Below, in pieces: positions 1 through 10,360 of a stretch of DNA of 64,000 bases. Under the pieces are notes generated by a model. That model saw nothing but the letters and a program-made list of their open reading frames with translations. It was not told where the DNA came from and made no database searches. The DNA comes from an uncultured Bacteroidota bacterium (GTDB lineage: Bacteria > Bacteroidota > Bacteroidia > Bacteroidales > 4484-276). How positions within the stretch are numbered: the first letter of the stretch is position 1; each line of letters starts with the position of its first letter. Location of the stretch: assembly GCA_903944895.1 (NCBI GenBank), contig CAJATL010000374.1, forward strand, positions 1 through 64,000, read 5' to 3'. A program made the position numbers and the translations under genes.

Positions 1-2
1 TC

Positions 3-635
3 TGCGGTTGGAAAGCAAAAATATTTTTACCATTTGGTGTAAAACCCAGAAAAAACGCAAGATGTCCTAAATGTGGATCACTGGAAAGGCATAGACTTTA
101 CTATTTGTACCTTAAAGAGATTCTCCCTAAAGATAAACAATTAAAAGTTATTCATTTTGCGCCAGAAAAGATTATAACCAGTCTCTTAAAATCTTACAGT
201 AATATCGAGTATCTGAGTATAGACATTGAACCACATAGAGCTATGAAAACAGAAGATATTACCAGGCTGACTTTTTCTGATAACTCATTTGATATTATTT
301 TTTGTTCCCATGTTCTCGAACATGTAGAAAATGACAGAAAAGCTATGCAGGAATTATTTCGAATTCTAAAGCCTGGTGGTTTTGCAATTCTGCAGGTACC
401 AATTAAAAACATAGAAAAGACTTTTGAAGATTTTACAGTCAAGGATCCAAAGGAACGCGAGAAAGTATTTGGTCAAAGTGACCATGTAAGAATTTACGGA
501 AAAGATTACCTGAACCGTCTCGAACAATCTGGTTTTAAAGTAAGATGTGATAATTTTTTTGAGTCTTTGGATAAGAATGTCATCAACAAATATGGCCTCA
601 AAAGGGAAAATATTTATTTTTGTTATAAAGAATAA
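3..635 (+). CDS. Class I SAM-dependent methyltransferase with zinc-ribbon N-terminus (5' partial)
   Basis: The frame is open to the left edge of the window, so the gene starts outside it. The first visible residues form the second half of a Cys-type zinc knuckle: a CG pair at the edge, then CPKCGSLERHR, a signature that precedes the Rossmann domain in a family of Bacteroidota/Firmicutes methyltransferases. A methyltransferase type-11 core follows: the SAM-loop-like HFAPE, the acidic YLSIDIEPH, SFDIIFCSHVLEHV (motif IV region) and LKPGGFAILQVP (motif V/VI). An internal TTG at 105 could be taken as a start but would cut the zinc knuckle in half, so I read the gene as continuing upstream. The substrate is unknown; relatives are often near glycan or cell-surface genes. 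It is the leftmost gene of a cassette-like array and may itself be a cassette. Confidence 0.8.
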   Translation, partial: CGWKAKIFLPFGVKPRKNARCPKCGSLERHRLYYLYLKEILPKDKQLKVIHFAPEKIITSLLKSYSNIEYLSIDIEPHRAMKTEDITRLTFSDNSFDIIFCSHVLEHVENDRKAMQELFRILKPGGFAILQVPIKNIEKTFEDFTVKDPKEREKVFGQSDHVRIYGKDYLNRLEQSGFKVRCDNFFESLDKNVINKYGLKRENIYFCYKE

Positions 636-802
636 TTTACGGCAGATTTTCGAAATCTATAAAAGCATTTGGGTTCCTTGCCATCTTGCACTCCCGCCTG
701 ACAGCTCAGAGTGCATATCAGCGGATAAACGGTTCAACTCTTGCCAGGCCTCACCCAAATTGCCTGCGCTTCGCTTCGACAACTTCTTTTATCCGTGAAC
801 CG
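636..802 (+). other. attC-like recombination site 1 after the methyltransferase
   Basis: This non-coding stretch contains an inverted pair AACGGTTCA (728-736) / TGAACCGTT (796-804) around a GC-rich loop. It ends in ACCG|TTAATC, followed by a CCCCCTCTACC run that resembles the sequence after the two better sites at 2743 and 3566. The segment GCTTCGACAA near the 3' arm resembles GGCTCGACAGGAA in the other two. The matching cassette start lies outside the window, so the test that supports the other two sites cannot be applied here. Confidence 0.4.
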
Positions 803-893
803 TTAATCTCAATCCCCCTCTACCCTACCACTCCGGCACCGGCACCACCCCCTCCACTCCATTCCCGGCCCCCAAATCCACTATCATTCCGTA
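803..893 (-). pseudogene. Decayed copy of the 3' end of the 3589-4278 gene
   Basis: The CCCCCTCTACC run, the CTCCGGCACCGGCACC segment and CGGCCCCCAAATCCACTAT align with the last about 80 bp of the minus-strand gene at 3589-4278 (CTCCGGCACTGGAACC, CGCCCCCAAATCCACAAT). The reading frame is not kept. A second such remnant lies at 2755-2838. The copies look like scars left when the array was extended by duplication next to that gene. Confidence 0.5.
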
Positions 894-910
894 AAGTTTT
901 TAAAAATAAT

Positions 911-953
911 TCCCCCACATCCCCCAACCCCAATCAAATTTTCTTTAGCTTTG
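911..953 (+). promoter_or_regulatory. Repeated promoter block, copy 1 (truncated), with -7 box TAGCTTTG
   Basis: CCCCCACATCCC, CAACCCCAATCAAA and CTTTAGCTTTG recur at 1715-1758 and 2851-2891. The last eight bases (946-953, TAGCTTTG) match the Bacteroidota -7 consensus TAnnTTTG and lie 35 bp before the ATG at 988. This copy stops being similar after the -7 box, while the other two continue for about 80 bp. No clear -33 element was seen. Confidence 0.5.
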
Positions 954-1598: not shown

Positions 1599-1714
1599 CA
1601 AAAAGAGGATTTTTGTATTTCCCATGAAGTGAAGCAGACGCCCAAACATTATCGCTTCCATTTATCATTTAATTTGGTAAAAGTCTTCTATTTACGGTTA
1701 CACAAAAAAAATAA
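1599..1714. other. Spacer after the DUF6934 pair
   Basis: No gene was seen. The segment ends near ACG|GTTACAC (1697-1703), which has the GTT core expected of a cassette junction. However, no matching core was found at the start of the DUF6934 unit and no convincing hairpin, so this boundary is not established. Confidence 0.25.
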
Positions 1715-1838
1715 TCCCCCACATCCCACAACCCCAATCAAAATATCTTTAGCTTTGCCCAAATTAAGAAGTAACATTGATTGTTAAAATGATAAATAAA
1801 ACATTAAAAAGTGACAACTTTATGGAGATATTTACTAG
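1715..1838 (+). promoter_or_regulatory. Repeated promoter block, copy 2, ending at cassette junction TTTACTAG|TT
   Basis: About 125 bp nearly repeated at 2851-2972: the C-rich CCCCCACATCCC segment, TAGCTTTG at 1751-1758 (a TAnnTTTG -7 box), AAATTAAGAAGTAACATTGA, TGTTAAAATGA and a terminal TTTACTAG. Similarity to the second copy stops at G1838, exactly where the predicted cassette begins (TTATTGGC). The arrangement of promoter followed by recombination point resembles an integron Pc-attI region, here present once per cassette. Confidence 0.55.
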
Positions 1839-1866
1839 TTATTGGCAAGGCTAAAAAATCGACACA

Positions 1867-2613
1867 ATGAAAGAATTCAGTGACTATGAGAAAGTAATTC
1901 TCGGAAAAATCGTTGAGATTGAGGGAATTCCCGGCGGACTTAATGTTTTGGGAAACATTTTGGACTTTGAGCTTTATCCCAATTTTTATATCACGTTAAA
2001 TTCAGAGACTGATTGTTCTGTAATTATTAAGAAAACATACCTTGACAACATTGCAAATACATATGGCAATCTTGGCGTTTCTGAAATTACAAAACAGCTA
2101 AATAATAAGTTTCTATTTGTTGCAAAACTTTTTGAATATCTTGAAAGAGAAGGACAAATTTATTTAACAGATGAAATTGATTTACCGACACTTGGTAGTA
2201 AATTCGGCAATCGTGAAGAAAAAGTAAGTTATCCTCTTGAAGATAAAGAAACAGTTAGCTTAATCTACAGGATTGCGAAAAAACGAATTGTTCCAAATGA
2301 TTCCTTAATCCATTTTGTCAAGAATAACTTCAAAACGGACAGTGAAATAAAAGCAGAACAGGAACAACGGAATACATCGAGAAAAATCAATTGGACAGCA
2401 TTTGGAGTTATTGTTTCTCTTATCGGGATTCTATTGACAAACGTTCTGAAAATAGTTGAGATGAATAAAACAAAAGGAATTGACAGAGTTGAAATTATCA
2501 ATGATAAACTCAAGATTTCCAATGATAGAGACACAACCTATATGAAGATTTCCATAGACAAATTTAACGATACATTGAATGTAAAATCCGATAATAAGGT
2601 TAGGGTAAAATAA
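1867..2613 (+). CDS. Hypothetical protein with one C-terminal-half membrane helix
   Basis: A 248-aa protein starting at the ATG at 1867. Residues 1-170 are predicted soluble and mixed alpha/beta, with no motif I recognise. A single hydrophobic helix follows at about 176-197 (WTAFGVIVSLIGILLTNVL), then a charged tail of about 50 residues rich in Asp, Lys and Ile. The gene sits alone inside a cassette-like unit: the nine bases GTTATTGGC at 1838-1846 are the reverse complement of GCCAATAAC at 2619-2627, five bases after the stop codon. It is probably driven by the TAGCTTTG promoter in the preceding block. Function is unknown; cassette-borne membrane proteins are often defence or immunity genes, but nothing here shows that directly. 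Confidence 0.7.
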   Translation: MKEFSDYEKVILGKIVEIEGIPGGLNVLGNILDFELYPNFYITLNSETDCSVIIKKTYLDNIANTYGNLGVSEITKQLNNKFLFVAKLFEYLEREGQIYLTDEIDLPTLGSKFGNREEKVSYPLEDKETVSLIYRIAKKRIVPNDSLIHFVKNNFKTDSEIKAEQEQRNTSRKINWTAFGVIVSLIGILLTNVLKIVEMNKTKGIDRVEIINDKLKISNDRDTTYMKISIDKFNDTLNVKSDNKVRVK

Positions 2614-2618
2614 GCCCA

Positions 2619-2743
2619 GCCAATAACTTCAGCTACCCGTCAAGCGCGGCAGCAGTGGTTTTCGGTGGGCATCTTTCCGCTCGGGCTGCTTTTCGGCTCG
2701 ACAGGAAATCACCCGCAGTTGGCAACTTTTCATACCGCCACCG
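2619..2743 (+). other. attC-like recombination site 2
   Basis: It begins with GCCAATAAC (2619-2627), the exact reverse complement of the cassette start GTTATTGGC (1838-1846), and ends at CACCG|TTAAAAC (crossover after G2743). The 125-bp length is within the usual attC range. The inner part, GGCTCGACAGGAA followed by CACCCGCA and TTGGCAACT (about 2695-2727), is shared with the site at 3439-3566. Pairing of the outer arms is weak by eye. Confidence 0.55.
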
Positions 2744-2972
2744 TTAAAACCCCATCCCCCTCCTTCCTACACCTGCGGTGTTACACCCCCCTCCGTCCCT
2801 TCCCGGCCCCCAAATCCACTATTATCCCGTAAAATTTTATAAAACTATTAACCCACATCCCCCAACCCCAATCAAATTATCCTTAGCTTTGTCCAAATTA
2901 AGAAGTAACATTGACTGTTAAAATGAGAAATAAAACTTCAAAAAGTAACAAGTTTTTGCAGCTATTTACTAG
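2744..2972 (+). repeat. Spacer block: anchor-gene remnant plus promoter copy 3
   Basis: It starts with TTAAAACCCC, like the sequence after the site at 3566. It then contains a degenerate copy of the 3' end of the 3589-4278 gene (CCTACACCTGCGG, CGGCCCCCAAATCCACTATT, about 2765-2838) and the promoter block at 2851-2972 with a second full TAGCTTTG at 2884-2891. It ends at TTTACTAG, immediately before the next cassette start. It therefore links two cassettes with a complete promoter. No coding sequence was seen. Confidence 0.55.
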
Positions 2973-3002
2973 TTAGCAACAATTATAAGAGCGTCATAAA
3001 CT

Positions 3003-3437
3003 ATGAAAGAGATAACAATTATAATTATATTGACTTTTCTAAATCTGATCTCGACAGCTCAGAGTAATAATGGACAAATTGAAAGGTTGACAATTTCATA
3101 TAATGGAGACTCTACCTTATTGACAGAGAAATATGAAATTGACATTGTGAAGAAAAAAGTATTCTCTATAACTCCAATAATGAACTATCTAGACATTAAA
3201 GGGACAAAATATAGAACCCATATAAAGTTCAATCGACAGAGCTGGACTGAGTTGACAGATTTAATTAATAGAATCGATTTTAGTAAGCTTGATTCAATAA
3301 ACCGACCAAACAAAAAGGTTACATATTATATTGAGATGGAGAATTTAAGACAGGAGATTAGAAGCTATTCGATTATGAATGAGGATGAATCTGGTGGAAT
3401 AAAAGATTTATTTGAAATTATTAGAAAAACAAAATAA
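3003..3437 (+). CDS. Small secreted hypothetical protein
   Basis: A 144-aa protein with an N-terminal signal peptide (MKEITIIIILTFLNLISTAQ, likely cleaved after the Ala-Gln). The mature part of about 124 residues is predicted alpha/beta with alternating charged and aromatic residues. No named domain was recognised. The gene fills a cassette-like unit bounded by GTTAGCAACA (2972-2981) and its exact reverse complement TGTTGCTAAC (3439-3448). Its promoter is likely the TAGCTTTG box at 2884-2891. Confidence 0.65.
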   Translation: MKEITIIIILTFLNLISTAQSNNGQIERLTISYNGDSTLLTEKYEIDIVKKKVFSITPIMNYLDIKGTKYRTHIKFNRQSWTELTDLINRIDFSKLDSINRPNKKVTYYIEMENLRQEIRSYSIMNEDESGGIKDLFEIIRKTK

Positions 3438-3438
3438 C

Positions 3439-3566
3439 TGTTGCTAACAAAAAATATATGATAATTGCCGTTTCCGTGCAAATTTGGAAGTTTTCAGCCC
3501 GCAACAGCCTTTGTGTGGCTCGACAGGAAGCAACCCGCAATCGGCAACTACATATATTTCCGAACG
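3439..3566 (+). other. attC-like recombination site 3 (best hairpin)
   Basis: The core TGTTGCTAAC right after the stop codon is the perfect complement of the cassette start at 2972. The arms AAATATATGATAATTGCCG (3452-3470) and CGGCAACTACATATATTT (3542-3559) pair with one extra unpaired base, the kind of extrahelical base that marks real attC folds. The site ends GAACG|TTAAAT, fitting the GTTRRRY rule. Total length is 128 bp. The central GGCTCGACAGGAAGCAACCCGC is shared with the site at 2619-2743. Confidence 0.6.
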
Positions 3567-3588
3567 TTAAATACACCCCCCTTCCAAC

Positions 3589-4278
3589 CTACACCTCCGG
3601 CACTGGAACCACCTCCTCCGGCCCCTTCCCCGCCCCCAAATCCACAATAATCCGGGCATTCAGGTAATTCGTATAAAAATCCGGATTCGTAACCCGGAAC
3701 GAAAGCACCAGCTTATCAAGTTTATTCTTCAGTATTGCATCCACATCCTTAAAAAGCCCGCCAATAGCCGTTGTAGCCGATTTGCTCACCGCCGTGGCAT
3801 TACGCCGCTTCGGAATAGTCGTCAAAAACTGCCCAAGCAACGTCTGAAACTGTGTAATATCAGCAGCCACAATATTATAACCAGCCAGTTGCGTGGCCAG
3901 TGGCTGTGCGGCCTCATAAATAATCCGCGCCTTATCGTAAAAAATATTGTCGCGCGCCTTCATTAACTCCGACTTCGTGTAATCCGCAATCCCCGTAAGC
4001 TCTGCATTATTCGTCACACTCGCATACGCCAGCAGCGAGCCGCTCACTTTCAATGTCAGTCGCAACAGCGTTTCGCGCTGCATTTTACGCTCTGTCACCA
4101 GTCCCGAAGCATCCTTTTCCTGCTTCTGCCGTTCGGTACGGATAGCCGTAATCTTGCCATCAAGTTCAAGTTTAGTTGTCCCGATAGCCGCAATCGAAGT
4201 CCAGGTAGCCTGTGTGTTCGCCAGAAAAGCCTGAACAGCCTCAAACATGTTCAGTTTGTTAATTTGTTTTGCATTCAT
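3589..4278 (-). CDS. Hypothetical helical protein (array anchor gene)
   Basis: A 229-aa protein. I chose the ATG at 4278 (MNAKQINKLNMFEAV) over an upstream one ten codons earlier that gives an unlikely hydrophobic leader. The sequence is predicted to be nearly all helix: coiled-coil-like at about 45-75 (ERQKQEKD...TERKMQRE), then long amphipathic helices and a short Gly/Pro-rich tail ending VVPVPEV. It has no signal peptide or membrane segment. No Arg-His-Arg-Tyr recombinase motif is present, so it is not an integrase. Decayed copies of its 3' end lie at 803-893 and 2755-2838. Immediately upstream is a 21-bp minisatellite. Function is unknown. Confidence 0.65.
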   Translation of the reverse strand: MNAKQINKLNMFEAVQAFLANTQATWTSIAAIGTTKLELDGKITAIRTERQKQEKDASGLVTERKMQRETLLRLTLKVSGSLLAYASVTNNAELTGIADYTKSELMKARDNIFYDKARIIYEAAQPLATQLAGYNIVAADITQFQTLLGQFLTTIPKRRNATAVSKSATTAIGGLFKDVDAILKNKLDKLVLSFRVTNPDFYTNYLNARIIVDLGAGKGPEEVVPVPEV

Positions 4279-4410
4279 AATGGTATCTATTTTAAAATGA
4301 AGAAACAAATTTCAAAAATGTTTTGCCAAAAAACAAATTTTAACCCATAAATTTATTCTTTCAAACCTACACACCCCTTAAAGCCTGATCTGGTTTTCAC
4401 TTTCAACCAC

Positions 4411-4712
4411 CAACCGACGTCATTTCTCTACCGACAGACGTCATTTCTCTACTGACAGACGTCATTTCTCTACCAACAGATGTCATTTCTCAACCGACAG
4501 ACGCCATTTCTTCACCGTCAGATGATATTTCTTCACCATCAGACGTCATTTCTCAACCGACAGATGTCATTTCTCCACCATCAGACGTCATTTCTCTACC
4601 GACAGACGTTATTTCTCAGCCGACAGATGTCATTTCTCAACCGACAGACCTCATTTCTCTAACGACAGACGCTATTTCTTCACTGTCAGATGTTATTTCT
4701 CCATGGTAAGAT
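4411..4712. repeat. 21-bp minisatellite, about 14 units
   Basis: The imperfect unit GACGTCATTTCTCTACCGACA is repeated head to tail with substitutions that mostly keep length, so one frame reads as a seven-residue repeat (FLxRQxS). The uniform heptad and lack of a start context suggest non-coding DNA. It lies 130 bp upstream of the start of the 3589-4278 gene. Confidence 0.8.
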
Positions 4713-4715
4713 GTC

Positions 4716-5118
4716 ATTGCGTCAGTTAAAAATGACTTCGCGTCACATCAAATCCTTTTTTCTTCTCTCCCTTTGCGCCCCTCTGCGTCTTCCTTTGCGG
4801 TTCTCTGCGTTTAAATCTTAATCCAGATAATAAATAACCCTCTCTGATTACTGAAAATTGATATTGCGATAGTTACAAATTACTTGGTGTCAGATAAAAA
4901 ATTTATTTCTTCTCCCCCTTTGCGGCCCTCTGCGCTTATCTTTGCGGTTCTCTGCGTTTAAATCTTAATCCAGGTAGCTAAAAACCCTCTCCGACCATTG
5001 TAAAAGGATATTGCGGTAGTTAAAAATGACTTCGCGGCAGATAAAGTAAATCTCTGACCTCTCCCTTTGCGGCCCTCTGCGCTTACCTTTGCGGTTCTCT
5101 GCGTTTAAATCTCCAAAT
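4716..5118. repeat. Three tandem 147-bp repeats
   Basis: Units start at 4716, 4863 and 5010 (ATTGCGnnAGTTA). Each contains CCCTTTGCGnCCCTCTGCG, CTTTGCGGTTCTCTGCG and TTTAAATCT. The spacing is exactly 147 bp twice. The third unit is cut short near 5118. There is no open frame of interest. Together with the minisatellite it fills the gene-free stretch from 4279 to 5236; the remaining 118 bp before the next gene is AT-rich and shows nothing else. Confidence 0.8.
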
Positions 5119-9525: not shown

Positions 9526-10224
9526 TTACAGCAAATACTTCAATGTTATCGCAAGCTTTGGTCCATTTAATGAAATTGTTTCGGTAATGATTTTAGTATC
9601 GTCCGGGTTATCTGGATTTTCTATTTTAAAATCCTGTTTGTAATTACCCAATTTGTATTGAAACTCAAAATCAACAGCAAATTGAGCGGACAACTTGGTT
9701 TCAAACCCAGCAATAAAACGCCCCATCATTGTTTTCCCCCATTGAGGTTCGGGGTCATCATTCAGGTCAAAAACCATCTTATTTTGCAGGAATAAAAATT
9801 CGCTACCTGCTCCCACAAAGGGTGTAACCACCGAAAATTTAAAGGGAGTAATATGATATTTAAAATCCAGGCTAATGGGTATTCCAGTCAATAACAAGGT
9901 TGTGTTCCCAAACCCCTGAAGATCATACGCTACACTTTCCTGCCAATACCCCAGTCCCACCTGAGCATAAAGATCGGGAATGATTTTCATGTTCAAAAAA
10001 GCATTAGCATCAATAGCCCCCTTAAAATCTGCATCTTTAAATTCGGATTCATCTGTCCAATAATCCATGGCCGGATTATACCAACCTACCGAAAGTCCGG
10101 TACTATAGAGTTGAAAATTCCCGGAACCTGTATTTTCTTGCTGTGAATATGAAAATTTGGCTCCAAAACCTAAAAATAAAAGTAAGAAAAGAAAACGTAA
10201 TTGTCTCGAAAGTAAATTCATCAT
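9526..10224 (-). CDS. Outer-membrane beta-barrel-like protein
   Basis: A 232-aa protein. I chose the tandem ATG at 10224/10221 (MMNLLSRQLRFLFLLLFLG), which gives a clean signal peptide ending near FSYSQQ. An upstream start eleven codons earlier would lengthen it without reason. The mature part alternates hydrophobic and polar residues in strands separated by Gly/Asp turns (VGLGYWQES, FVGAGSEFLF, FDFEFQYKLGNYK) and ends in a hydrophobic strand LAITLKYLL, as in small outer-membrane barrels of the phylum. Ligand unknown. A -7 box lies at 10255-10262. Confidence 0.65.
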   Translation of the reverse strand: MMNLLSRQLRFLFLLLFLGFGAKFSYSQQENTGSGNFQLYSTGLSVGWYNPAMDYWTDESEFKDADFKGAIDANAFLNMKIIPDLYAQVGLGYWQESVAYDLQGFGNTTLLLTGIPISLDFKYHITPFKFSVVTPFVGAGSEFLFLQNKMVFDLNDDPEPQWGKTMMGRFIAGFETKLSAQFAVDFEFQYKLGNYKQDFKIENPDNPDDTKIITETISLNGPKLAITLKYLL

Positions 10225-10254
10225 GATTTCCTGAATGTAATTAAGAATTAAAAG

Positions 10255-10262
10255 CAAAAATA
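10255..10262 (-). promoter_or_regulatory. -7 promoter element
   Basis: TATTTTTG on the minus strand, 30 bp upstream of the beta-barrel gene's start, matches TAnnTTTG. Confidence 0.5.
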
Positions 10263-10360
10263 TTGATTAAATACTGCAACCTGCAAATTTTCTGGTAAAT
10301 AAAAAAGCATGAAACTGTCTGTGTCAATTTCATGCTTTTCAAGTCTTAACTTATGATTGA

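Follow-up and report, generated by a model that had tools for sequence, protein, structure and literature searches.

Both genes studied here in the window, i.e., the whole stretch of 64,000 nucleotides analyzed from an uncultured Bacteroidota bacterium, are very probably cassettes of a Bacteroidota integron-like system. The window shows what appear to be two integron-type cassettes, one with an intact attC and one with a decayed attC, and an intact-looking platform is present elsewhere in the genome. By all sequence signs this system would work like an integron, and such integron-like capture appears to be widespread in Bacteroidota.

The first cassette (1839..2743, + strand, 905 bp) extends from the TT that follows the G of an attI-like site to the G of its own attC and carries a gene of 248 aa (1867..2613, +), and the second (2973..3566, +, 594 bp) carries a gene of 144 aa (3003..3437, +). 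The sequence-only reading had recognized such cassettes by the complementarity of their starts to the cores located after the genes, and a check of strings and positions confirmed both matches: GTTATTGGC at 1838-1846 is the reverse complement of GCCAATAAC at 2619-2627 (9/9 positions), and GTTAGCAACA at 2972-2981 that of TGTTGCTAAC at 3439-3448 (10/10 positions). As had been read, the sites that open with these cores, 2619-2743 (125 bp) and 3439-3566 (128 bp), both end at G|TT and share the inner segment GGCTCGACAGGAA; its two occurrences, at 2695 and 3517, are the only ones in the window. A given 9-mer or 10-mer is expected within 200 bp 3' of the gene with a chance of 0.0008 or 0.0002, respectively, and the core match exceeds chance because both starts are set independently by a repeated leader whose similarity ends at G|TT. 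Neither protein belongs to a Pfam family, and relatives were found neither for the first gene in 297 genomes nor for the second in 396 genomes, so that neither an exchange of these genes between strains nor the fixed gene order in relatives that the sequence-only reading would have counted against cassettes was seen. The absence of an integrase gene from the window was also correctly noted, all integrase-family matches of the genome being located on other contigs. A search of the window with Rfam matched a tRNA and no attC-like family.

The two cassettes are not one simple array, each of them lying behind its own attI-like copy and promoter-like leader, a layout absent from the sequence-only reading. 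The leader of copy 1 (1707..1805, +) contains the promoter-like motif TTAGCTTTG, read directly and followed by an untranslated leader, and the attI-like site itself (1806..1838, +) ends at the G of G|TT. The leader of copy 2 (2841..2939, +), identified by repeat comparison, has the same promoter-like motif and precedes the second attI-like site (2940..2972, +). We take TTAGCTTTG to fit the Bacteroidota -7 promoter motif TAnnTTTG. Over 135 bp, positions 1707-1841 share 87% identity with 2841-2975, a similarity that stops at ACTAGTTA, the G|TT junction. The last ~33 leader bases were aligned with four further copies found in the same genome on contigs C84, C288, C365, and C344; each of them ends at G|TTA and is then followed by a different sequence. 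A sequence model (R1) finds all six copies again, including the two of the window, which were in its training set (36.9 bits for copy 1 and 46 bits, the best of the genome, for copy 2), together with weaker ones on C365 and C70.

We interpret the leader as attI because in relatives the 33 bases sit at the 3' end of a recombinase gene. In a genome of the same order (G035, locus L072), they start at the stop codon of a tyrosine recombinase (TGACAAGTTTATATAGATATTTACTA|GTTACC), and in one of the same genus (G001) they sit after a broken tyrosine recombinase copy. The C-terminal end of the recombinase can be read by eye as a remnant (SPLDGLVDETRKK) upstream of the copy on C84, and at the window copies the integrase is absent and a promoter-like block with its -7-type motif stands in its place. 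The arrangement of an attI beside an integrase, with cassettes inserted at G|TT, holds at the genome level outside the window, on contig C311 and at 20 other loci. Another attI copy on C288 (locus L024, 3052-4665) is followed by a cassette encoding a TIR/SEFIR protein, with 9/10 core complementarity to its attC. On C365 (locus L069), three attI-like copies are found within 5.5 kb with no attC match, and the copy at C365:23103 may be an empty attI.

For the fold of attC, a covariance model (R2) was built from 22 sites aligned on their bottom strand, none from the window and one from C311. These training sites were picked via the core rule and arm pairing, and the pairing signal within them is therefore partly selected, whereas that of matches in fresh genomes is not. 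In the long L stem, 19/20 pairs vary on both sides, with a covariation of 0.454 vs. 0.157 in shuffled and 0.07-0.134 in slid alignments of the 22 sites. In the cores, YAAC and GTT(A/G) are conserved, and the outer bases vary freely yet remain complementary over 10 nt. Strand asymmetry is present as a bulge and as two G.T wobbles (22/22 and 18/22 sites) that pair on the bottom strand only, and the bottom strand folds better in 23/25 sites, those of the window included, by a mean of 3.1 kcal/mol. The covariance search suggested by the sequence-only reading was performed with this model made from other sites; it matched the second window site (3439..3572, - strand) with 67.4 bits (E 9e-19) and gave 4.4 bits for the first. 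The second site folds on the bottom strand with z = -3.8, none of 200 shuffles being as good, and exhibits one bulged base in the long stem as well as a 3-nt bulge beside the core, in agreement with the extrahelical base reported before. Hence, the attC fold whose absence would have spoken against cassettes was found. Over 121 bp, this second site shares 79% identity with an attC of locus L128 that belongs to an unrelated cassette. In the genome of the window R2 gives about 25 attC matches at E < 0.01 and in the integrase loci it matches ~65 places, whereas loci L129-L168, among them canonical IntI loci and a class 1 integron, gave no match.

The attC-like site of cassette 1 (2619..2743, -) is degenerate, with an intact core and unpaired L arms. 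Its fold reaches z = -1.9 and the duplex of its own arms -7.0 kcal/mol, vs. -7.3 for random arm pairs, whereas its 5' arm pairs with the 3' arm of another site at -17.9 and its 3' arm with the 5' arm of a C311 site at -12.0. It is likely a mosaic joining two attC halves, which perhaps arose by a deletion removing a cassette. Taking complementary cores and foldable arms together as the mark of an attC, cassette 2 presents both and cassette 1 the core only. The earlier statement that both cassettes were proven by their cores must be divided accordingly: the core complementarity of both holds and cassette 2 is additionally matched by the attC model, but the claim was overstated for cassette 1, whose attC arms are unpaired and whose site the model rejects.

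Several repeats surround the two cassettes. A gene-end and promoter-like block (799..953, +) upstream of a DUF6934 gene (988-1446, Pfam) is 79% identical to 2740-2890. The convergent flanking gene (3589..4308, -), which encodes 239 aa of no Pfam family, has its 3' end repeated at 801 and 2743, and the truncated copy of this 3' end (2744..2830, -) is seen in direct repeats D2-D4. A possible third, decayed attC (710..808, -) follows the methyltransferase gene at 105-635; with 6.1 bits the match is not significant, its arms were read by eye, and we consider it a weak candidate. Repeats separate the cassette region from the next gene: 14 tandem copies of a 21-bp unit (ACCGACAGACGTCATTTCTCT, 4409-4701) and, after these, 2.7 copies of a 147-bp unit (4716-5112). 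The left contig end (window 1-139) overlaps the end of contig C418 over 139 bp at 99.3%, and C418 probably extends the window leftward, with two further copies of the promoter-like block.

The platform of this genome is located on contig C311, which encodes an intact 383-aa recombinase with an attI-like junction and seven attC. The recombinase is followed by 134 bp, GTTAGGGGC, a type III restriction-modification pair, GCCCCTAAC with an attC, and more attC to the contig end, six significant attC matches lying at or beyond 23.7-31.7 kb on the same strand. The absence of any integrase from the genome, another finding that would have argued against cassettes, is hence not what we observe, but the enzyme differs from the expected one: to judge from its sequence it is not a canonical IntI, the IntI-specific insert being absent, and no canonical IntI over cut-off was found in this genome. 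Contig C216 carries a pseudogene of a C311-type integrase. We did not retain the C390 integrase or the XerC/D-like ones of this genome, as the cassette rule is absent there and their architecture is another one.

The attI of the C311 integrase differs from the window type, for which no intact cognate integrase was found in this genome (96% complete), and the window cassettes may therefore be stranded. This leads to the first alternative, according to which they are decayed relics of a former platform (attI, integrase remnant, and cassettes) that were copied by homologous recombination and are now immobile. Several attI-like copies without a nearby integrase, the C-terminal integrase remnant upstream of one of them, the mosaic first site, and the repeated gene-end and promoter blocks are in line with such a decay. 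On the contrary, cassette 2 retains a full attC and its 10/10 core, every attI copy bears a different cassette with a sharp G|TT boundary, and an intact integrase is available in trans on C311. We give immobility slightly less than an even chance; it bears on present activity and is compatible with the integron-like explanation.

Among known proteins, the nearest sequence to the C311 enzyme is XerA, and its predicted fold is nearest to the integron integrase 2A3V and to XerA; its catalytic part has its best sequence matches with XerA (PDB 5hxy) and NCBIfam NF040815. In the family that it represents, motifs II and III are separated by a short region devoid of the ~40-residue IntI-specific insert: the spacing from K to HxLRH amounts to 63-69 aa, compared to 71-73 in most XerC/D and 105-106 in eight canonical IntI, including IntI1. 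The TIGR02249 profile remains below cut-off against the C311-type integrase, leaving positions ~181-238 unmatched, and in a careful tree the IntI group together in one clade, supported at 100/100, to which the new family does not belong; the latter may be a sister of IntI or may have arisen separately from XerA. The N-terminal ~75 residues of the C311 integrase, confidently modeled (pLDDT 87.5), show a weak likeness, first to the SMARCAL1 HARP domain and then to XPB (E 0.13, probability 0.69). This HARP-like N-terminal domain is usual in the family, whose genes are transcribed toward their cassettes, and the 593-aa integrase of L072 (G035:C3) has an N-terminal extension apparently made of three such units in tandem.

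The IntI-specific additional domain serves as a selection criterion for integron integrases (PMC2426708, PMC9668308, and Messier and Roy 2001 cited therein); it is also an IntegronFinder profile, and the literature calls it necessary for activity. By this criterion the system is not an integron, because its integrase has no IntI-specific domain, and since the IntI-defining segment is absent, standard searches would pass it over. The IntI insertion is not fully conserved in an integron-like subgroup (PMC8138268), so that scattered members of the family may have been seen before.

The core rule extends to other genomes. Scanning genome contigs with the integrase yielded 80 loci, about 40 of them in Bacteroidota, and at 20/37 loci of the family a GTTR start within 350 bp of the integrase stop has a complement of at least 10 nt downstream, compared to 2.4% of control windows and 3.3% of swapped starts (P about 2e-20). 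This complement nearly always measures exactly 10 nt. A few chance-like matches aside, the rule does not appear in such a form among XerA, XerC/D, and other recombinases of the same scan. Similarly, among consecutive cassettes, defined as the intervals between successive R2 matches, 43/53 have a start that matches the core of their own attC at 9-10/10 positions (1.9% in mispaired controls), and many of the 9/10 starts differ by C/T at base 10, which again forms a G.T pair on the bottom strand. Thus, the core-complementarity argument put forward for two cassettes applies far beyond the window.

The size of 74 cassettes ranges from 431 to 7361 bp, with a median near 900, and their nucleotide likeness lies nearly all in the terminal attC, where unrelated cassettes from different genomes can be as much as 96% alike. 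Most selected cassette ORFs (93/97) point in one direction, and in 20 further genomes the attC listed within 30 kb of an integrase are all downstream and in the same orientation (37/37). Matches of 72 sampled cassette proteins include enzymes of restriction-modification types II, IIG, and III, TIR-NACHT, a PIN domain, and rifampin ADP-ribosyltransferase. The Arr-like (rifampin ADP-ribosyltransferase) Pfam match probably corresponds to the cassette gene at 9827-10276 of locus L078; Arr-type genes are well known from class 1 integrons. The rule, together with an attC-like fold, also occurs outside Bacteroidota in a Spirochaetota MAG (locus L127), with 37 bits for a site that was in the training set; this case could reflect a binning error or a transfer.

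With a threshold of E <= 1e-6 for R2, attC were detected in 151/297 sampled genomes of the phylum and in 0/40 outside it. The N-terminal domain of the integrase occurs in 53/297 genomes, 51 of which also have attC (P 3e-15). In the class of the window, which named members of the integrase scan indicate to be Bacteroidia, attC are present in 56/74 genomes, i.e., in 30/31 genomes with the N-terminal domain vs. 26/43 others (P 2e-4). We dropped the phylum count as pure evidence for the new integrase, canonical IntI being common in the phylum outside the class (84/297 phylum genomes over cut-off, compared to 1/74 in the class), and the class-level count (56/74, IntI in 1/74) is the cleaner measure. 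In one genome outside the class, an R2-type attC is found at a distance of 8 kb from a broken canonical IntI, the layout being divergent (G170:C1:753005-761623). This type of attC may thus extend to some of the canonical integrons outside the class, whose sites R2 would then recognize.

These counts bear on a second alternative, in which the genes are canonical chromosomal integron cassettes (CALIN) with an ordinary IntI located elsewhere or lost. The core logic, the attC length (125-130 bp), and the cassette layout are those of canonical integrons, and members of the phylum outside the class do possess canonical IntI. However, the genome has no IntI over cut-off, the sole genome of the class with one has no attC match, and in genomes encoding both enzymes most listed attC are neighbors of the insert-less integrase, the IntI being on another contig or far away. 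Moreover, the attC model gave no match in the canonical IntI loci and genomes examined, nor in the class 1 integron, and we regard this origin as unlikely. An Xer/dif-dependent mobile element is still less probable: the kinship of the integrase with XerA and the short dyad often seen upstream of the attI junction would suit it, but the cassettes end in a long folded attC with covarying stems instead of 28-bp dif sites, and Xer-type loci of the same scan do not follow the rule. Finally, AT-rich DNA often contains short perfect inverted matches and two examples alone could have been selected, but chance complementarity or ordinary terminator or REP-like hairpins, to which we give practically no credence, are refuted by the control counts, the covariation, the restriction of matches to the phylum, and the 37/37 orientation, a terminator scan having revealed no excess.

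In the integron-like system that we favor, a XerA/IntI-like tyrosine recombinase would insert circular cassettes between G and TT at an attI located at or just past the 3' end of its gene. Each cassette has one attC, the bottom strand of which forms a hairpin made of a 10-bp R stem, a 3-5 nt one-sided bulge, and a ~20-bp L stem. One side of the R stem comes from the cassette start, so that integration would leave the first 10 bases of the cassette complementary to the first 10 of its attC. Dispersed attI copies with their own promoter-like leader may allow each window cassette to be transcribed without a shared array promoter. The sequences themselves show the core complementarity, the covariation, the strand asymmetry, the position of attI, the structure of the arrays, and the association with the integrase. 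From these features we infer, with due caution, the position of the cut, the action on folded single strands, and a continued movement of cassettes. The HARP-like N-terminal domain or another part of the enzyme may replace the missing IntI-specific insert. Whether all this amounts to a second integron lineage, which would capture folded attC without the IntI-specific domain and with a HARP-like DNA-junction-binding N-terminal domain in its role, is in our opinion evenly balanced. If true, such a lineage would be common in Bacteroidia (three quarters of sampled species) and unseen by searches demanding IntI.

Integrons are described as rare in Bacteroidetes, and IntegronFinder 2.0 reported one complete Bacteroidetes integron, in Salinibacter, besides those of Chlorobi and Ignavibacteriae (PMC9024848). 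No description of the present cassette system was found in the literature searched, which excluded preprints and most subscription journals. A phylum-wide cassette system using another integrase would alter the estimates of gene capture in these bacteria and opens a store of cassette genes. It also makes directly testable the purpose of the IntI domain, which has been treated as a hallmark.

The system shares with canonical integrons the G|TT junction, the R''/R' complementarity, the bottom-strand attC hairpin, mostly one-gene and co-oriented cassettes that have only attC in common, an attI beside the integrase, and an Arr-like cassette gene. The attC length of 125-130 bp is comparable to that of Vibrio superintegron repeats. 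Unlike canonical integrons, it relies on an integrase devoid of the IntI insert (63-69 vs. 105-106 aa), placed outside the IntI clade and mostly extended at its N-terminus; its core complement spans 10 nt, of which only YAAC/GTTR is conserved vs. RYYYAAC/GTTRRRY, and its long L stem is marked by G.T. The integrase is co-directional with the array, whereas the class 1 layout is divergent, with known exceptions. The chromosomal integron of Treponema denticola likewise departs from the class 1 layout by the orientation of its integrase, but has a canonical IntI and belongs to another phylum. XerA, the archaeal Xer recombinase (PDB 5hxy), and NF040815 are nearest in sequence to the catalytic part of the family and have the same insert-free spacing, whereas XerA has no N-terminal extension and XerA loci of the scan have no attI/attC cassettes.

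CALIN is the IntegronFinder term for a cluster of attC lacking an integrase (PMC9024848). The attC without an adjoining integrase in the window, on C162, and on C242 resemble such a cluster; of the at least two attC that it requires, the window offers one certain and one degenerate. Contrary to a CALIN, each cassette of the window comes with an attI copy, the attC model accepts only one of their two sites, and the integrase of the genome is not an IntI. A parallel for cassettes with extra or partial attI copies is found in the unusual delta-attI cassettes of mobile integrons (PMC12901181), which carry attI of class 1 and 2, whereas the attI copies described here stand ahead of cassettes scattered over one genome.
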